Shown here: piece after piece, positions 24,807 through 54,586 of the stretch
Numbering within the stretch: the stretch's first letter is position 1
Layout of the letters: every line of letters begins with the position of its first letter
NCBI RefSeq assembly: GCF_011320225.1
Contig: NZ_JAAOEN010000001.1
Span: forward strand, 911,652 to 975,651
From: Phytoactinopolyspora limicola
GTDB lineage: Bacteria > Actinomycetota > Actinomycetes > Jiangellales > Jiangellaceae
Direction: 5' to 3'
DNA length: 64,000 nt
Program-made: the position numbers and the translations under genes
Notes under the pieces: model-generated
Told to the model about the DNA's origin: nothing
Databases searched by the model: none
Seen by the model: only the letters and a program-made list of their open reading frames with translations

Positions 24807-24864
24807 CCCATGATCGTTGGCTTTTGACCACCGAATTCGGTGGTCAGAAGCCAACGATCATGGG
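24807..24864 (-). terminator. Very long hairpin overlapping the DUF1015 stop codon
   Basis: Arms 24807-24835 and 24836-24864 are reverse complements over 29 positions with a single T/G mismatch (24824 against 24847, which would be a G-U pair in plus-strand RNA); the centre is GAATTC. It overlaps the last codons of the minus-strand DUF1015 gene and precedes the Na/Pi gene, consistent with a strong terminator. The arm carries a TGATCGTTGGC core similar to other intergenic hairpins in this window. Confidence 0.8.
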
Positions 24865-28358: not shown

Positions 28359-28496
28359 CCGTGATCGTTGCCGAAATCCAGCCGCTCCCTCCCGTGATCG
28401 AAGTCACGATTCGGTCGCTATTGCGACTCTAAGCCGGCGACGATCACGGGGGTGGGGGGCGGAAATCCGGCGACGATCACGGGGGGTGGGGGGCGG
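28359..28496. repeat. Inverted and direct repeats after the TetR gene
   Basis: Two nearly identical ~30-bp direct copies starting CCGGCGACGATCACGGGG (28434-28462 and 28467-28496) end in G-rich tails. CCGTGATCGTTGCCG at 28359-28373 is an inverted copy with one mismatch, so stems of 14-15 bp can form. A small GTCGC-TATT-GCGAC hairpin lies inside. It is the 3' end of the minus-strand TetR gene, so termination is the simplest role. The TGATCGTYGCC core recurs at 24.8 and 53 kb. Confidence 0.75.
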
Positions 28497-29119: not shown

Positions 29120-29229
29120 TCTCTCCCACCTCCGTGCCGCGAGTCGGCCGCTCTGTCCGCAGTTGTCGTGCGCTCGCAGTTGTCGTGTGCTTCGGGCTCG
29201 TTGTCCGGCGGTTGACGAGCGATCGCAGT

Positions 29230-29265
29230 AACTATACTTTGAAGTATATACATCAAAGTATAGTT
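29230..29265. promoter_or_regulatory. 36-bp TetR operator before ABC exporter
   Basis: AACTATACTTTGA (29230-29242) and TCAAAGTATAGTT (29253-29265) are perfect inverted 13-mers, and the 10-bp centre contains the palindrome GTATATAC (29244-29251). The whole site is symmetric except for one A/A pair. It is AT-rich in a GC-rich genome and contains TATACT-like -10 sequences, so repressor binding would block the promoter. Confidence 0.85.
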
Positions 29266-29305
29266 AGCGGGAGTTGCTCATGAGATCTAGCGAAGGGGTG
29301 AGGTC

Positions 29306-44560: not shown

Positions 44561-46083
44561 ATCACCCGACCGACCAGAACGCCCGCATCACCATCCCGCA
44601 CTGGGCTGGAGGCAAACCCTGGGACGGCACCTCCACCCGGACGGGTACGGTGCACGACCCTGCCACGGGTGAGGTCTCCGGCACGGTGGCACTGGCGTCC
44701 GCGGCCGACGTCGACGAGGTGGTGGCGGCGGCTTCCCGGGCAGCCGCCGACTGGCGGCGCGCGTCGCTGACCAAACGGGCCGCGGTGCTGTTCCGCTTCC
44801 GTGAGCTCCTCGCCCAGAACACCGACGACGTCGCCGCCGCGATTACCGCCGAGCACGGCAAGGTGTTGTCCGACGCCGCCGGCGAAGTACAGCGCGGCCT
44901 CGAGGTGGCAGAGTTCGCATGTGGCATCCCGCACCTGCTCAAGGGTGGGTTCAGCGAGAACGCCTCGACCAACCTGGACGTGTATTCGCTGCGGCAGCCG
45001 CTGGGTGTCGTCGCTGTCATCTCGCCGTTCAACTTTCCGGCGATGGTGCCGTTGTGGTTCGTCCCGATCGCCATCGCCTGCGGCAACCCCGTCGTGCTCA
45101 AACCGAGCGAGAAGGATCCGTCGGCCAGCCTGCTGATCGCCCGGCTGTGGGCCGAGGCCGGGCTGCCGGAGGGTGTGTTCAACGTCGTCCATGGCGACAA
45201 AGAAGCCGTCGACCGGCTGCTGGAGCACGACGACGTGAAAGCGGTGTCGTTCGTCGGCTCCACCCCGGTGGCGCGGTATGTCTACGAGACCGCCACCAGG
45301 CACGGAAAGCGGGTCCAAGCCCTCGGCGGGGCGAAGAACCACATGGTGGTCTTGCCGGATGCCGATCTCGATCTCGCGGCGGACGCGGCCGTCAACGCCG
45401 GGTTCGGTTCGGCGGGCGAACGGTGTATGGCGATCAGCGCATTGGTGGCCGTCGAACCGGTGGCGGACCCCCTGATCCACAAGATCAGGGAGCGGATGGC
45501 CGGGCTCCGTGTTGGCGACGGCCGACGATCCTGTGACATGGGCCCGTTGATCACCGCCGAGCACCGGGACCGGGTGGCGTCGTACCTCGATGCCGGCGTG
45601 GCAGCGGGCGCCGAATTGGTGGTGGATGGGCGCCAGTACCCGATCGATGGCGCCGACGGCGGGTTCTGGCTGGGGCCGAGCCTGTTCGACCGGGTCACCC
45701 CCGAGATGTCTATCTACACCGACGAGATCTTCGGGCCCGTGCTCTCGGTTGTCCGGGCCGACTCCTACGACGACGCACTCGAGCTGGTGAACCGGAACCA
45801 GTACGGCAACGGCACGGCGATCTTCACCAACGACGGCGGCGCAGCCCGCCGTTTCCAGAGTGAGGTGGAGGTCGGCATGGTGGGGGTCAACGTACCGATC
45901 CCGGTCCCGGTGGCGTACTACTCGTTCGGTGGCTGGAAGTCGTCGTTGTTCGGCGACTCCCATGCCTACGGCACCGACGGGGTGCACTTCTTCACCCGTT
46001 CCAAGGTGGTGACCAGCCGGTGGCCGGGGTCCGGGGCGGGCGACCGGGGCGGCGTCAGCCTCAGCTTCAACCCCACCCGCTGA
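44557..46083 (+). CDS. mmsA: CoA-acylating methylmalonate-semialdehyde dehydrogenase
   Basis: A 508-residue aldehyde dehydrogenase of the MmsA/IolA group: VAVISPFNFPAMVPLWFVPI, VLKPSEKDPSASLLI, VGSTPVARYVYETATRHGKR, ALGGAKNHMVV and the catalytic Cys in GSAGERCMAISA (MmsA lacks the general-base Glu of other ALDHs). It makes acetyl-CoA or propionyl-CoA with CO2 from (methyl)malonate semialdehyde. The ATGA overlap with the aminotransferase shows one operon for beta-alanine or pyrimidine/valine-derived beta-amino acids. Confidence 0.92.
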   Translation: MNHPTDQNARITIPHWAGGKPWDGTSTRTGTVHDPATGEVSGTVALASAADVDEVVAAASRAAADWRRASLTKRAAVLFRFRELLAQNTDDVAAAITAEHGKVLSDAAGEVQRGLEVAEFACGIPHLLKGGFSENASTNLDVYSLRQPLGVVAVISPFNFPAMVPLWFVPIAIACGNPVVLKPSEKDPSASLLIARLWAEAGLPEGVFNVVHGDKEAVDRLLEHDDVKAVSFVGSTPVARYVYETATRHGKRVQALGGAKNHMVVLPDADLDLAADAAVNAGFGSAGERCMAISALVAVEPVADPLIHKIRERMAGLRVGDGRRSCDMGPLITAEHRDRVASYLDAGVAAGAELVVDGRQYPIDGADGGFWLGPSLFDRVTPEMSIYTDEIFGPVLSVVRADSYDDALELVNRNQYGNGTAIFTNDGGAARRFQSEVEVGMVGVNVPIPVPVAYYSFGGWKSSLFGDSHAYGTDGVHFFTRSKVVTSRWPGSGAGDRGGVSLSFNPTR

Positions 46084-46130
46084 TCATGAACACTTTGCCG
46101 TGCTATCGCACGGCAAAGTGTTCATGATCA
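46081..46130. terminator. 23-bp perfect hairpin, bidirectional terminator
   Basis: Arms 46081-46103 and 46108-46130 are perfect reverse complements of 23 nt around the loop TATC. The element starts with the mmsA stop codon and ends in the convergent kynU stop region, so it closes both genes. The stem contains TGATCATGAACAC and TTTGCCGTGC. Confidence 0.88.
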
Positions 46131-47423
46131 TGGGAGGAGGCGGGTGAGGGCGTCCGCGAAGCGCCAGCAATCGTGGTACGTCGAGTAGAGCGGCACCGGG
46201 GCGGCCCGCACGATATCTGGCTCTCGGAAGTCGGTGATCACGCCGTGCTCGTGCCGCAACCGCCGGGCAACCTCACCCGCATCCCCCTGGTCGATCCGGA
46301 CCGATAGCTGGCAGCCTCGCTGCTGCGGATCGCGTGGGGTGATCACCGTCAGCGGACGCGAGGCCGCGATGTCGTCGAGAACGCGCTCCAGGTAGCCGGT
46401 CAGCCGGATGCTCCGTTCCCGGAGGGTGGTCATCCCCACCGTCTCGAAGAGGTCCAGGGCGGCTCGCATCGGGCTGAGTCCCAGGGCCGACGGGGTAGAG
46501 ACCTGCCAGGCGTCGGCGGTGGGCGGCGGCTGAGGGATGGCGTCCATGCGGAACCGCACCGCGGCGTCGGTGCCCCACCACCCCTCCAACCGTGGCATGG
46601 CGGGATCGTCCACGTGTCGCTCGTGGACGAACGCTCCCCCCGGTGCACCGGGGCCGGAGTTGAGGTACTTGTACATACACCAGACGGCGAAGTCGACGTC
46701 CCAGTCGTGTAGCTGGAGCGGGATATTTCCGGCGGCGTGGGCGAGATCCCAGCCGGAGACGGCGCCGGCCTCGCGGGTGGCGCGGGTGATCGCCGGGATG
46801 TCCATGAGCTGCCCGCTGTGATAGTTGACCGCGCCGAGCAGCACGAGCGCCACCGTCGGCCCCTCGCGCCTGAGCAGGTCCACCACGTCATCGGTGCGCA
46901 GATGGTGTTCCCCCGGGCGAGGCCGTAGCCGGACGACGGCATCGTCGGGGTCCAACCCGTGCCACCGGGCCTGGCTGCGAACCGCGTAGCTGTCCGACGG
47001 GAACGTGTTGTCCTCGACGACGATCCGCACCCGCTCGCCCCGCGGACGGTAGAAGGACGCCATCATCAGGTGCAGGTTCACCGTCAGACTGTTCATGATG
47101 ACCGTCTCGGCCGGACCGGCCCCGATCAGGCCGGCCATCGACGCGGCGAACCGCTGCGGGTAAGACTGCCAGGGCCGTTCCCCGTCGAAGAACCCTTCGA
47201 CGCCGAACCGCCCCCACGAGTCCAGGTCCGCGAGAATATCCGCTCGGGTCGCCACGGGCTGCAACCCCAGGGAATTGCCAACGAGATAAGCCGCCTGCGG
47301 ATACGGCCCCCCTTCCGCGGGCGGCACCACGAATAGCTCACGCCAGCCCGGATCGGACCCGTCGGCGTCGAGCGCCGCCTGCTCGGTGGTGGCGTCGGGG
47401 CCCGTCGTCGGCGCTGCCGTCAT
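46128..47423 (-). CDS. kynU: Kynureninase
   Basis: A 431-residue PLP enzyme that cleaves kynurenine to anthranilate and alanine. Motifs: YLVGNSLGLQPVATRADI, EDNTFPSDSYAVRSQARWHG, SGWDLAHAAGNIPLQLHDWD (Asp226, His229) and the PLP Lys252 in WCMYKYLNSGPGAPGGAFVH. The ATG at 47423 matches family length; the longer frame to 47813 overlaps kynA. It lies 40 bp downstream of kynA in the tryptophan-degradation operon. Confidence 0.95.
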   Translation of the reverse strand: MTAAPTTGPDATTEQAALDADGSDPGWRELFVVPPAEGGPYPQAAYLVGNSLGLQPVATRADILADLDSWGRFGVEGFFDGERPWQSYPQRFAASMAGLIGAGPAETVIMNSLTVNLHLMMASFYRPRGERVRIVVEDNTFPSDSYAVRSQARWHGLDPDDAVVRLRPRPGEHHLRTDDVVDLLRREGPTVALVLLGAVNYHSGQLMDIPAITRATREAGAVSGWDLAHAAGNIPLQLHDWDVDFAVWCMYKYLNSGPGAPGGAFVHERHVDDPAMPRLEGWWGTDAAVRFRMDAIPQPPPTADAWQVSTPSALGLSPMRAALDLFETVGMTTLRERSIRLTGYLERVLDDIAASRPLTVITPRDPQQRGCQLSVRIDQGDAGEVARRLRHEHGVITDFREPDIVRAAPVPLYSTYHDCWRFADALTRLLP

Positions 47424-52140: not shown

Positions 52141-53004
52141 TCACCGGGCCTGGGGCAGCTTCACCGACCCGCGCTGTGCCGCTGGTGCCGACGGCGGCGG
52201 AACCACCGGCCCGATGTCGCCGTCCGGGGCGGTGTCGAGGTCGACGATCACCGGGGCGTGGTCGCTCGGACCGGTACCCTTCCGGGCCTGCCGATCCACC
52301 CATGCCGCGGCCACCCGCGCCGAAACCGGGGTAGTGGCCAGAATCAGGTCGATCCGCATGCCGAGATCCTTGTGGAACATGCCGGCGCGGTAGTCCCAGT
52401 ACGTGAAGATCCGCTCGTCGGGCCAGCGCTCGCGGATGACATCGTGCAGGCCGACGCCCCGCAAGGCGGCCAAATGCTCACGCTCGGGCGCCGTGACGTG
52501 GGTCTGCCCGGCGTAAGCCTCCGGATCGAACACGTCGGCGTCGGTCGGGGCGATGTTGACGTCACCACACACCAGTGCATCGGCCGGCCCGGCCTGCACA
52601 GTGGCGCGCAGAGCGTCGAGCCAGGCCAGCTTGTAGTGGTAATGATCGGAGTCGGGCTCCCGGCCGTTGGGCACATACATCGAATGGACGCGGACCCCGG
52701 CACAGGTCGCAGCCAGCGCCCGGGCCTCCGGATGGGGAAAACCCGGAGCCCCCTCAAGTCCGGGTACGACGTCGTCGAGCCCGACCCGAGACAAGATCGC
52801 CACCCCATTCCAGCGTGGTTCTCCGTGGTGGGCGAAGGTGTACCCCAACTCGGCCAACGGTTCGCCGAACATGGTGGCGAAGGCGTCGTCGGCGAGTTTG
52901 GTCTCCTGGAGGCACACCACGTCCGGCTGGCGTTGTTGAAGCCATGTCAACAGGCGGGGTTGCCGTTGCTTGGCCGAATTCACGTTCCACGTCGCTACCC
53001 GCAC
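52141..53004 (-). CDS. xthA: Exodeoxyribonuclease III (AP endonuclease)
   Basis: A 287-residue EEP-fold DNA repair nuclease: VRVATWNVNSAKQRQPRLLT, VVCLQETKLADDAF (metal Glu), WNGVAILSRVGLDDV, MYVPNGREPDSDHYHYKLAW, ALVCGDVNIAPTDADV, IFTYWDYRAGMFHKDLGMRI-type substrate loop, and GPSDHAPVIVDL (catalytic His). It cleaves abasic DNA in base excision repair. The GTG at 53004 matches the family start; the frame to 53151 runs into the repeat array. No signal peptide. Confidence 0.94.
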   Translation of the reverse strand: MRVATWNVNSAKQRQPRLLTWLQQRQPDVVCLQETKLADDAFATMFGEPLAELGYTFAHHGEPRWNGVAILSRVGLDDVVPGLEGAPGFPHPEARALAATCAGVRVHSMYVPNGREPDSDHYHYKLAWLDALRATVQAGPADALVCGDVNIAPTDADVFDPEAYAGQTHVTAPEREHLAALRGVGLHDVIRERWPDERIFTYWDYRAGMFHKDLGMRIDLILATTPVSARVAAAWVDRQARKGTGPSDHAPVIVDLDTAPDGDIGPVVPPPSAPAAQRGSVKLPQAR

Positions 53005-53040
53005 CTGACCTACGTTAGCGCTCCGCCCCCACCCCCGGTT

Positions 53041-53618
53041 GTGCACCTGATCTCCGTTTGTGCGCCTGATCGTTTTTGTGGCGACGATCAGGTGCAGGGG
53101 GATGGCGACGTCCAGCGCCGACGGGCGGTTGCGGCGTCTGATCGTCGCCACGATGTGGATGCGATGTGGAACGCTTGGCGATCAGATGCGCCAACCGTTG
53201 GATGACGTCCGGTAGCGCATCTGATCATTCGTCCGTGTTCCACATCGTCGCGGATCCGCTGGGCGCTCTGCCGCTTGTCGGTGGTGCCGGGTGCTCCCCC
53301 CCCGGAGGTCTCTACAGCCGCCGTACACCCACCGGCGGACCGCACATGCGCTCGCCGTCGTCGTCCGCATACCCGTGCGCCCAAAGCTCCGACAACGGCT
53401 CCCCCCGACGAGGTGGCCACGATCAGATGCATAAGCCACCGGATCTCGGTCCGTCGTGCATCTGATCGTCCGCCATCCGCATGATGAGACGTGATCAGAT
53501 GCACACCGGTCGGCCGTTGCCTCGCAATCGCCCACGCGCGGCGCATCTGATCGTCGCCACAAAAACGATCAGGCGCACAAGCGGAGATCAGGTGCACAAA
53601 CGGAGATCAGGTGCACAA
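53041..53618. repeat. Array of GATC-cored inverted repeats bounded by 57-bp inverted repeats
   Basis: The outer arms 53041-53097 and 53541-53597 are inverted copies differing at only a few positions; they contain GTGCACCTGATCTCCG, GCGCCTGATCGTTTTTG and TGGCGACGATCAG. The unit CGGAGATCAGGTGCACAA is repeated in tandem at 53582-53599 and 53601-53618. Inside are three hairpins of GATCAGATGC-spacer-GCATCTGATC type: 53180-53191 with 53215-53226, 53421-53431 with 53458-53468, and 53493-53502 with 53543-53552. GCGATGTGGAAC (53161-53172) pairs with GTTCCACATCG (53238-53248), nesting the first. ORFs across it encode only repeated HLIVAT-like peptides and are not genes. It lies between xthA and the NmrA-like gene (both minus). 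Confidence 0.85.
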
Positions 53619-53622
53619 CGGG

Positions 53623-54468
53623 TCAGCGGAAGGCGGCAGCGTGTTCGACGGCCCATTGGCGGTACGTGCGCGCCGGTGCGCCGGTCACGGCCTCGATCTC
53701 GTTGGTGAGCGGTTCCGGATTCTCCACCATGGAGGCCCACGCGTCGAGGGCCGCCTGGACGAACTCCGGGTCGCCCCATTCGGCGAGATACTGGCGTTCG
53801 GCGGCGTCGCGGGACATCTCTTCCCACCGCACTGGACGGCCGATCGCCTCGCCGATGGTGCGCACCTGTTCGACCTGGCTGATGTGTTCCGGCCCGGTCA
53901 GCGGATAAGCCCGGCCCACATGATGGTCCTCGAGCAGGGCATGGACGGCCACCGCCGCGAGGTCGGCTTCGTGGACGAGGGAACGACGGGCGGCGCCGTA
54001 GGGGGCCCGCACCACACCGTCGGTGCGGATGCTTTGAGCCCATTCGAGGGTGTTGGAGGTGAAGCCGGAGGCACGCAGGAAAGTCCATTCGACGCCGGAT
54101 TGTTCGATGAGTTCCTCGACCTCGCCCCAGAAGCCGGTCGGGCGTTGGTTGGCCGCGTCCTCGAGTGCGGAGAGGAAGACGACGCGGCGGGCGGCTTTGG
54201 TGAGCCGGGCAACGGTTGGTGGTGCGGCGTCGGCCGAGAGCAGTGGCCAGATGAGGAAGATGGACCCGACCCCGTCGAGCGCCGTGTCAAGTGTGTCGGG
54301 TTGGGTGAGATCGCCGGGAACGACGTCGACGCCGGTGGGAAGTTGGGCGCGTTCAGGATGGCGCACGACGGCGCGGACGTCGGCGCCGGCTGCGACGAGG
54401 CCGGTGACGACGTGTCGGCCGACGTGACCGGTGGCGCCGGTGACGAGGATGGTGCCGGGGACGGACAT
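53623..54468 (-). CDS. NmrA-like NAD(P)-binding oxidoreductase
   Basis: A 281-residue atypical SDR: ILVTGATGHVGRHVVTGLVA (GxxGxxG), VRAVVRHPERAQLP (NADP-type Arg), VVPGDLTQPDTLDTALDGVG, FLIWPLL, WTFLRASGFTSNTLEWAQSI. NmrA-like or quinone-reductase-2-like proteins sense or use NADPH in redox stress. The start at 54468 has GGAGG six bases before. Its promoter has an over-long 19-bp spacer holding a SoxR-type dyad, and soxR is the divergent neighbour. Confidence 0.88.
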   Translation of the reverse strand: MSVPGTILVTGATGHVGRHVVTGLVAAGADVRAVVRHPERAQLPTGVDVVPGDLTQPDTLDTALDGVGSIFLIWPLLSADAAPPTVARLTKAARRVVFLSALEDAANQRPTGFWGEVEELIEQSGVEWTFLRASGFTSNTLEWAQSIRTDGVVRAPYGAARRSLVHEADLAAVAVHALLEDHHVGRAYPLTGPEHISQVEQVRTIGEAIGRPVRWEEMSRDAAERQYLAEWGDPEFVQAALDAWASMVENPEPLTNEIEAVTGAPARTYRQWAVEHAAAFR

Positions 54469-54555
54469 GGATGCCTCCGTGAAGGTTTCGTCGATGTCGA
54501 CCAACCGTGGTTTCGGCCCGGCCGACGGCGGGCCCACGACGGGCCAGCTGTTCCC

Positions 54556-54586
54556 AGCCTCTGACTTCAACATAGGTTGAGGTCAA
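54556..54586 (-). promoter_or_regulatory. SoxR-type promoter of the NmrA-like gene
   Basis: On the minus strand: -35 TTGACC (54586-54581), 19-bp spacer, -10 GAGGCT (54561-54556). The spacer region carries the dyad GACTTCAAC (54563-54571), ATAG, GTTGAGGTC (54576-54584), 8 of 9 bp symmetric. A 19-20 bp spacer spanned by the operator is the mark of MerR-family activated promoters. On the other strand TAGTGT (54588-54593) lies seven bases before the soxR ATG, suggesting a leaderless soxR message. Confidence 0.8.

Follow-up and report, generated by a model that had tools for sequence, protein, structure and literature searches.

What is the palindrome-rich, 580-bp segment that separates two genes in the 64-kb window (the whole stretch of DNA analysed here), and does any gene act on it? 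The initial annotation described an array of hairpins bounded by inverted repeats, and our repeat search of the window recovered each part of that description: outer inverted arms at 53,035-53,095 and 53,543-53,603 (61 nt, 95% complementary), a second arm register (53,035-53,071/53,586-53,622), local inverted pairs (53,180-53,191/53,215-53,226; 53,419-53,431/53,457-53,469; 53,061-53,073/53,084-53,096) and a tandem end (Table 1). The unit of the array, however, is not the three separate hairpins proposed there but a motif, GATCAGRYG, which occurs 13 times in the 580-bp element vs 4 times in the remaining window. Its copies, at 53,044-53,613, follow the order <<><>< centre ><><>> at regular spacing, that is, 6+6 mirrored motifs plus one extra tandem motif, and the order and spacing of the left end match those of other elements in the same genome (G000) and in relatives. 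Folding of the region as RNA, suggested as a check, gave a structure far better than those of shuffled sequences (z -13.1, with 0 of 100 shuffles equally good), and an Rfam scan of the window returned no match at the gathering threshold. The flanking genes, named from their sequences rather than through a family search, are presumably xth-like and NmrA-like SDR genes.

Table 1. Window coordinates of the element, its parts and neighbours, and two palindromes of sister families.
Feature	Position	Strand	Remark
Gene-less element, whole (TTGTGCACC...GGTGCACAA)	53039..53618	.	4 nt from NmrA-like gene stop codon
Left end, motifs 53044<, 53063<, 53086>, 53135<, 53180>, 53218<	53039..53229	+	motif positions
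Centre, ~190 bp	53230..53420	.	no relative among 30 own-genome centres compared
Right end, mirror copy, motifs 53421>, 53459<, 53493>, 53544<, 53567>, 53586>, extra 53605>	53421..53618	-	outer arms 95% complementary
19-bp tandem x3 at right outer end	53567..53623	+	other ends mostly carry two motifs
Flanking gene, exodeoxyribonuclease III-like (xth)	52144..53013	-	marks syntenic empty site in G001
Flanking gene, NmrA-like SDR	53623..54573	-	stop codon 4 nt from element
58-bp palindrome, C12 sister family	24807..24864	.	90% (58 nt), 87% (54 nt) identity
54-nt palindrome, C10 sister family	46081..46134	.	98% identity over 54 nt

A search of the 6.59-Mb genome (40 contigs) with the array region revealed 144 matches, and 40 loci taken from around these matches carry motif arrays. 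The proposed whole-genome search thus yielded many intergenic copies, and the sequence is neither unique nor absent from relatives. Both outer ends were parsed in 26 loci (41 were examined, including the gene-bearing locus L217). An outer-end pattern matched 98 forward and 95 reverse sites, vs 2 and 0 for the reversed control; since ends with an extra motif count twice among these sites, the genome holds roughly 90-100 elements. On contigs C1 and C12, among the sites listed and with tandem doubles of one end set aside, neighbouring ends less than 1.6 kb apart face inward in 22 cases and outward in 0. Comparison of 30 centres showed one sequence common to 11 of them, another common to 6, and 13 singletons, including that of the window element. 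The motif letters vary by rank, being mostly GGTG outermost and GATG at the two inner ranks. By eye, the left outer ends of 27 intact elements read (T/C)GC|ACCTGATC, neither GTAG nor CGTC being constant among them, and no excess of direct repeats indicative of target-site duplication was found beside 27 intact elements. Based on an ORF caller that misses genes, the distance from element to gene end is 12 bp or less in 22 of 43 stop-side cases, and 30 bp or less in 0 of 17 start-side cases. Unpaired element ends were observed, among the sites listed, within ~1 kb of contig ends on C1 (both ends), C2, C6, C11, C12, C13 and C14, and the repeats therefore seem to break the assembly.

The host family of the arrays is Jiangellaceae, class Actinomycetes. 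Named matches fall in Jiangella, Haloactinopolyspora and Phytoactinopolyspora, plus one Gordonia contig; among the matches listed, hairpin arms are conserved and loops (mostly 26-28 nt) are variable. The Gordonia case (L208; Gordonia desulfuricans, NZ_BCNF01000194.1), outside Jiangellaceae, is a GATCAGGTGAC hairpin on a 6.4-kb contig with no further array. The contig search by pattern yielded 101 named stretches, all of which entered the spacing analysis below, and 80 of which entered the placement analysis; the latter placed 75 arrays, 27 between convergent, 33 between co-directional and 7 between divergent genes, with 8 unclassified. When the hairpin pattern was run over 22 Jiangellaceae genomes (controls all 0), it matched 228 times in G000, 86 in P. 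alkaliphila (G004), 82 in H. alba (G011), 68 in Jiangella muralis (G021), 54 in G014, 19 in G013, 11 in G015, 10 in G010, 8 in G018 and 0-2 in the other 13 genomes. At the locus of the window element, the congener G001 has the same xth-like and NmrA-like genes ~70 bp apart without an array. A further empty site was found in G020, where 43 bp separate the pcrA match from the start of the putative sdhB and no array intervenes. The elements are dispersed and mirror-symmetric, often stand just past stop codons, and are present or absent at a syntenic locus.

The initial annotation noted the lack of a transposase, which holds for the window copy; elsewhere in the genome, however, the same ends flank a nuclease-like gene. 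At C7:70,129-71,594, inverted arms of 177 nt, 95% complementary, enclose an intact gene (L217) with a 310-aa product, and the ends of the window element are common to this gene-enclosing copy, the only gene carrier found among the own-genome elements examined. An origin of the gene-less copies by internal deletion was rejected, as tblastn of 30 family proteins against the 40 element loci and the window detected no nuclease remnant. In H. alba, the gene stands alone between two inverted arrays, with no further gene there. Arrays lie on both sides of the gene in G000, G004, G011 and G014 (where the gene is broken) and only 3' of it in G010, G013, G015 and G018. In a FastTree phylogeny of 22 family proteins, these eight array-linked genes group in a clade of their own (support 0.946), and since the clade comes from the tree, the gene set is not defined by arrays alone. 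At least 8 hairpins were counted in 8 of 8 genomes with the clade (range 8-228), vs 1 of 14 without it (Fisher p 2.8e-5); 13 of these 14 have 0-2 hairpins, the exception being J. muralis, with 68 hairpins and no clade gene found. In that assembly the contig stops 1,341 bp beyond pcrA, close to where some congeners have the gene, which may therefore be present there but unassembled.

The position of the gene points to a mostly vertical inheritance. It lies 0.2-1.9 kb from pcrA in seven of the eight genomes. Its two usual neighbours, presumably sdhB and pcrA, are the same in G010, G011, G014, G015 and G018, as is the upstream one in G013. In G000 the gene adjoins pcrA, and in G004 it is found elsewhere, on C30. 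The pcrA-sdhB locus of G004 (L314, on C23) carries an array pair with a centre of ~715 bp and no nuclease, the gene having its own arrays on C30; because a gene-less pair remains at the usual site, the gene was probably displaced, or lost and regained, at least once. Its orientation relative to pcrA is opposite in G000 (L315, C7) and H. alba (L297, G011:C8), possibly as a result of inversion between the inverted ends. With the L217 protein as query, plasmid records gave no match at E<=1e-8, and phage records gave one unannotated 7.6-kb faecal record (31%).

Structural comparison of an AlphaFold2 model of the 310-aa protein (19 rows; mean pLDDT 85.4, pTM 0.76, with low confidence at residues 254-268) predicted an AbiEi-antitoxin fold joined to a nuclease-like domain. 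Residues 10-200 match the AbiEi antitoxin 6y8q (Z 11.4, rmsd 4.6, 184 aligned). Residues ~203-307 match 3hrl (Z 7.4, rmsd 4.0, 82 aligned) and the homing endonuclease I-Bth0305I, 3r3p (Z 6.7, rmsd 4.9, 84 aligned), where a Z below 8 can mean a mere common arrangement; the C-terminal match to PvuRts1I (4oq2) reached Z 4.0. We presume all three, 3r3p, 3hrl and 4oq2, to be EDxHD/Vsr-like nucleases. In an alignment with 39 usable of 41 rows (without L259 and L268), all 39 retain E208, D239, E250, G253, D265 and R268. The PADLOC AbiEi model matches L217 (E 8.9e-19). Among seven proteins scanned with Pfam, AbiEi_4 scored above its cut-off in L222 and L236, and DUF559 in L236 only; nothing was found at E<=1 for the array-clade proteins L183, L217 and L214, and NCBIfam returned nothing for 5 proteins. 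AbiEi and Rv2827c (1zel) bind sets of inverted repeats, which for AbiEi lie in its own promoters (PMC7319586).

The link between gene and palindrome extends beyond this clade, as many paralogues without GATCAG arrays have flanking palindromes of other sequence. When each left flank was compared with the reverse-complemented right flank, the score was at least 20 in 29 of 49 non-redundant Actinomycetes genes (18 of 29 in the set L213-L242 and 11 of 20 in L252-L272, of which L252 and L253 are also Jiangellaceae), vs 0 of 392 pseudo-genes, which were placed in Jiangellaceae DNA only (maximum 18.4); shuffles reached a maximum of 18.0 in 2,940. The other 20 genes, including L252 at 12.7, scored below 20. 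The test omits L239 and L243-L251, whose genes are already represented by other loci, and L254, which has too short a flank, and its 49 genes are dependent cases, since they are related to one another. No flank palindrome was found at L220, L234 or the own-genome loci L327-L329. Of eight family genes in G000, those on C7, C10, C12, C24 and C1 scored 158.6, 65.1, 57.8, 22.7 and 19.9, and those on C3, C5 and C38 have no flank palindrome. A long direct repeat (score 55.5) lies on both sides of the distant paralogue at L329 (G000:C38:249500-252300), and text like it (GGCAACAACAAGGAG...) occurs in the centres of two elements, L032 and L055. Across the class, the family profile matches 93 of 148 sampled genomes at E<=1e-10.

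Some of these sister palindromes are themselves dispersed. The ACCGACAT type occurs 24 times in G005, where two copies flank the gene, 12 times in G004, 7 in G003, 4 in G001 (1 in its control) and once in G000; a pair of them in G004:C5 was rejected as a gene-bearing element, as it encloses no family gene. The GATCATCNAGGATC type amounts to 45 palindromes (12 in G010, 7 in G016, 6 in G002, 5 in G003, 4 in G019 and 1-3 in others). For the palindrome that flanks the gene in G111, a genome-wide count gave one exact copy, and dispersal is therefore unsupported there. The initial annotation had assigned hairpins at 24.8 and 28.4 kb a TGATCGT core in common with the array. The former instead belongs to a sister family: the identities at 24,807 in Table 1 are to two palindromes flanking the paralogue G000:C12:12663-13553, and that at 46,081 is to one palindrome flanking the paralogue G000:C10:92392-93291. 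Among the 18 short-range inverted repeats on the window's list, these two rank highest for complementarity (97% and 100%, respectively). The window thus holds repeats of three such gene families. Further copies of the C12 and C10 types were found at L042 and L044 and at L043 and L062, respectively. At 28.4 kb no partner was found; the sequence there (28359-28482) is an inverted repeat (42 nt, 79%; CCGTGATCGTTGCCG.../...CGGCGACGATCACGG) accompanied by a G-rich stretch, and may represent yet another palindrome family. An AT-rich 38-bp palindrome at 29229-29266 (TAACTATACTTTGAAGTAT/ATACATCAAAGTATAGTTA, 95%), unusual in this G+C-rich DNA, is perhaps an operator.

Taken together, we consider it fairly probable that the window array is a gene-less copy of a two-ended element whose C7 relative encodes an AbiEi-nuclease that serves it, mobilisation included. 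The cognate link between gene and palindromes is well supported, and the protein is likely to bind the repeats; that its nuclease mobilises them we infer. The AbiEi part would bind the motifs in double-stranded form, in the manner of characterised AbiEi proteins, which bind inverted repeats (PMC7319586), and a complex would assemble along the regularly spaced motifs. The PD-(D/E)XK-like domain would then nick or cut at or near the motifs, and copies would spread when an element is copied into the break, so that one mostly vertically inherited gene would serve many repeats that lack it, a role like that of RAYT genes for REPs. Two options in the initial annotation, a non-autonomous palindromic element and a REP/BIME-like mosaic, came close, given the many intergenic copies, the mirror ends and the gene-bearing relative.

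The geometry of the arrays bears on how they might be recognised. GATC centre-to-centre distances are typically 19, 18, 44-45 or 55, 28-29 and 43-44. Among own-genome pairs up to 80 bp apart, >< pairs are spaced 43-45 in 84 cases, 54-57 in 38, 65 in 2 and 74 in 1, and <> pairs 18 in 58, 28-32 in 48 and 40 in 3, with two outliers. In relatives, >< pairs are spaced 43-46 in 159 cases and 55-56 in 11, with outliers at 25 and 76, and <> pairs 18 in 60 and 27-30 in 84, with seven scattered (15-17, 25, 36, 79). The steps of ~10-11 bp suggest that the protein binds one face of double-stranded DNA. Alternatively, the spacing classes may derive from a few inherited 11-bp duplications, and a periodicity score ranked periods 10 to 12 alike without singling out 10.5 bp.

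The alternative that survives best, which we still consider unlikely, holds that the palindromes are sites of a chromosomal regulator or nucleoid protein, namely the AbiEi fusion, with a host role at 3' ends such as insulation or termination and no mobiliser. It would account for motifs and spacing that are conserved while the intervening sequence diverges, and for sites that abut stop codons and spare start-side ends, and it agrees with the promoter inverted repeats that AbiEi proteins bind (PMC7319586). Yet a regulator needs neither inverted, paired ends around variable centres nor centre sequences common to 11 and to 6 copies; likewise, it needs neither presence or absence at a syntenic locus nor sites on both sides of many genes.

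We regard it as improbable that the elements are an ordinary MITE family moved by an unrelated transposase, with the nuclease gene captured by chance. Long terminal inverted repeats and copies that lack the gene are traits of MITEs, C7 is the sole gene-bearing copy among the own-genome elements examined, and our transposase search covered the Y1 class. Against chance capture, many paralogues show the same kind of link with palindromes of other sequence, the clade gene is array-flanked on both sides in four genomes and on one side in four, and the missing target-site duplication argues against ordinary transposition.

Pairing within the repeats was compared with expectation from several samples. 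In own-genome arrays, >< neighbours show no covariation (13 of 50, 17.7 expected; 53 of 56, 53.0 expected), whereas <> neighbours 18 apart agree in 21 of 67 vs 11.6 expected. The left end matches the right at ranks 2-4 (p 0.004, 0.027 and 0.034), ranks 1, 5 and 6 being nearly invariant. Pair covariation is absent from the G005 palindromes (all 24, 23 of them distinct; 106 paired vs 115 expected) and slightly in excess in G004 (11 of 12, one longer palindrome omitted; 70 vs 62). A third sample, 48-mers of a sister family pooled from several genomes, showed strong covariation (296 vs 200), where sub-families may be the cause; it comprises 40 of 45 GATCATC palindromes, four of other length and one G017 48-mer being omitted. 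Overall, this pattern leans toward duplex recognition without settling it. Selection at the RNA level, as a 3'-UTR structure or terminator array, is improbable despite the very stable predicted fold, the 3' location, the pooled 48-mers and the <> agreement, given the G005 and G004 results, the >< neighbours and the Rfam scan, and the structured-RNA decoy of the initial annotation is disfavoured by those same >< partners, though the <> neighbours 18 apart do agree.

More broadly, there is about an even chance that solitary AbiEi/DUF559-like genes constitute a new class of repeat-maintaining enzyme, each of which would bind, cut, found and keep its own palindromes, with several families per genome. 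Such a class would suggest a function, open to testing, for the many actinobacterial genes of orphan-AbiEi-like and DUF559-like kind that are still unexplained, and would provide a second, non-HUH protein for asking how systems of a gene with dispersed palindromes arise, spread and persist. By title and abstract, we found nothing in the open-access papers searched linking DUF559/AbiEi nucleases to dispersed palindromes.

Several known systems resemble the one proposed here. MITEs and foldback elements have long terminal inverted repeats, subterminal repeats, no coding capacity and many copies. Elements of the window type share all of these traits, but differ in having no target-site duplication beside 27 elements and in that the enclosed gene is not a known transposase. 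In TIRtrons, palindromes accompany TIRYT tyrosine transposases. The type IV toxin-antitoxin AbiE, in which the antitoxin AbiEi stands next to an AbiEii nucleotidyltransferase toxin, is similar in the predicted AbiEi fold (residues 10-200). Studied AbiEi proteins bind several inverted repeats (PMC7319586). The protein described here differs in its additional C-terminal domain and in its sites, which are dispersed as well as flanking the gene on either side; moreover, in H. alba the gene is alone between the arrays, with the putative sdhB and pcrA outside. I-Bth0305I (3r3p), 3hrl and PvuRts1I (4oq2) are similar in a moderate C-terminal fold match and in conserved acidic residues, whereas here the predicted domain follows an AbiEi part in a single protein, and palindromes flank the gene.

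The closest comparison is with REPtrons, in which REP palindromes accompany a RAYT (TnpA_REP) gene and carry GTAG or CGTC at the foot (PMC3733652). As in REPtrons, a chromosomal gene is flanked by its own palindromes (on both sides in 4 of 8 clade genomes and on one side in 4 of 8), many gene-less extragenic copies occur in alternating orientation, and the gene is mostly at one place and vertically inherited. A REP/RAYT system proper was rejected, as the Y1 transposase domain PF01797 is missing from 22 of 22 Jiangellaceae genomes (the control matched in 5 of 14 genomes), and lacking this defining transposase, the system is not a REPtron. Its protein is predicted to be an AbiEi and PD-(D/E)XK-like fusion instead of an HUH Y1 transposase, and each of its arrays combines 12 motifs at regular intervals with long inverted ends. 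If the broader reading, of a class of repeat-maintaining enzymes, is true, that class would be a nuclease-driven counterpart of REP/RAYT, with several independent families side by side in one genome.
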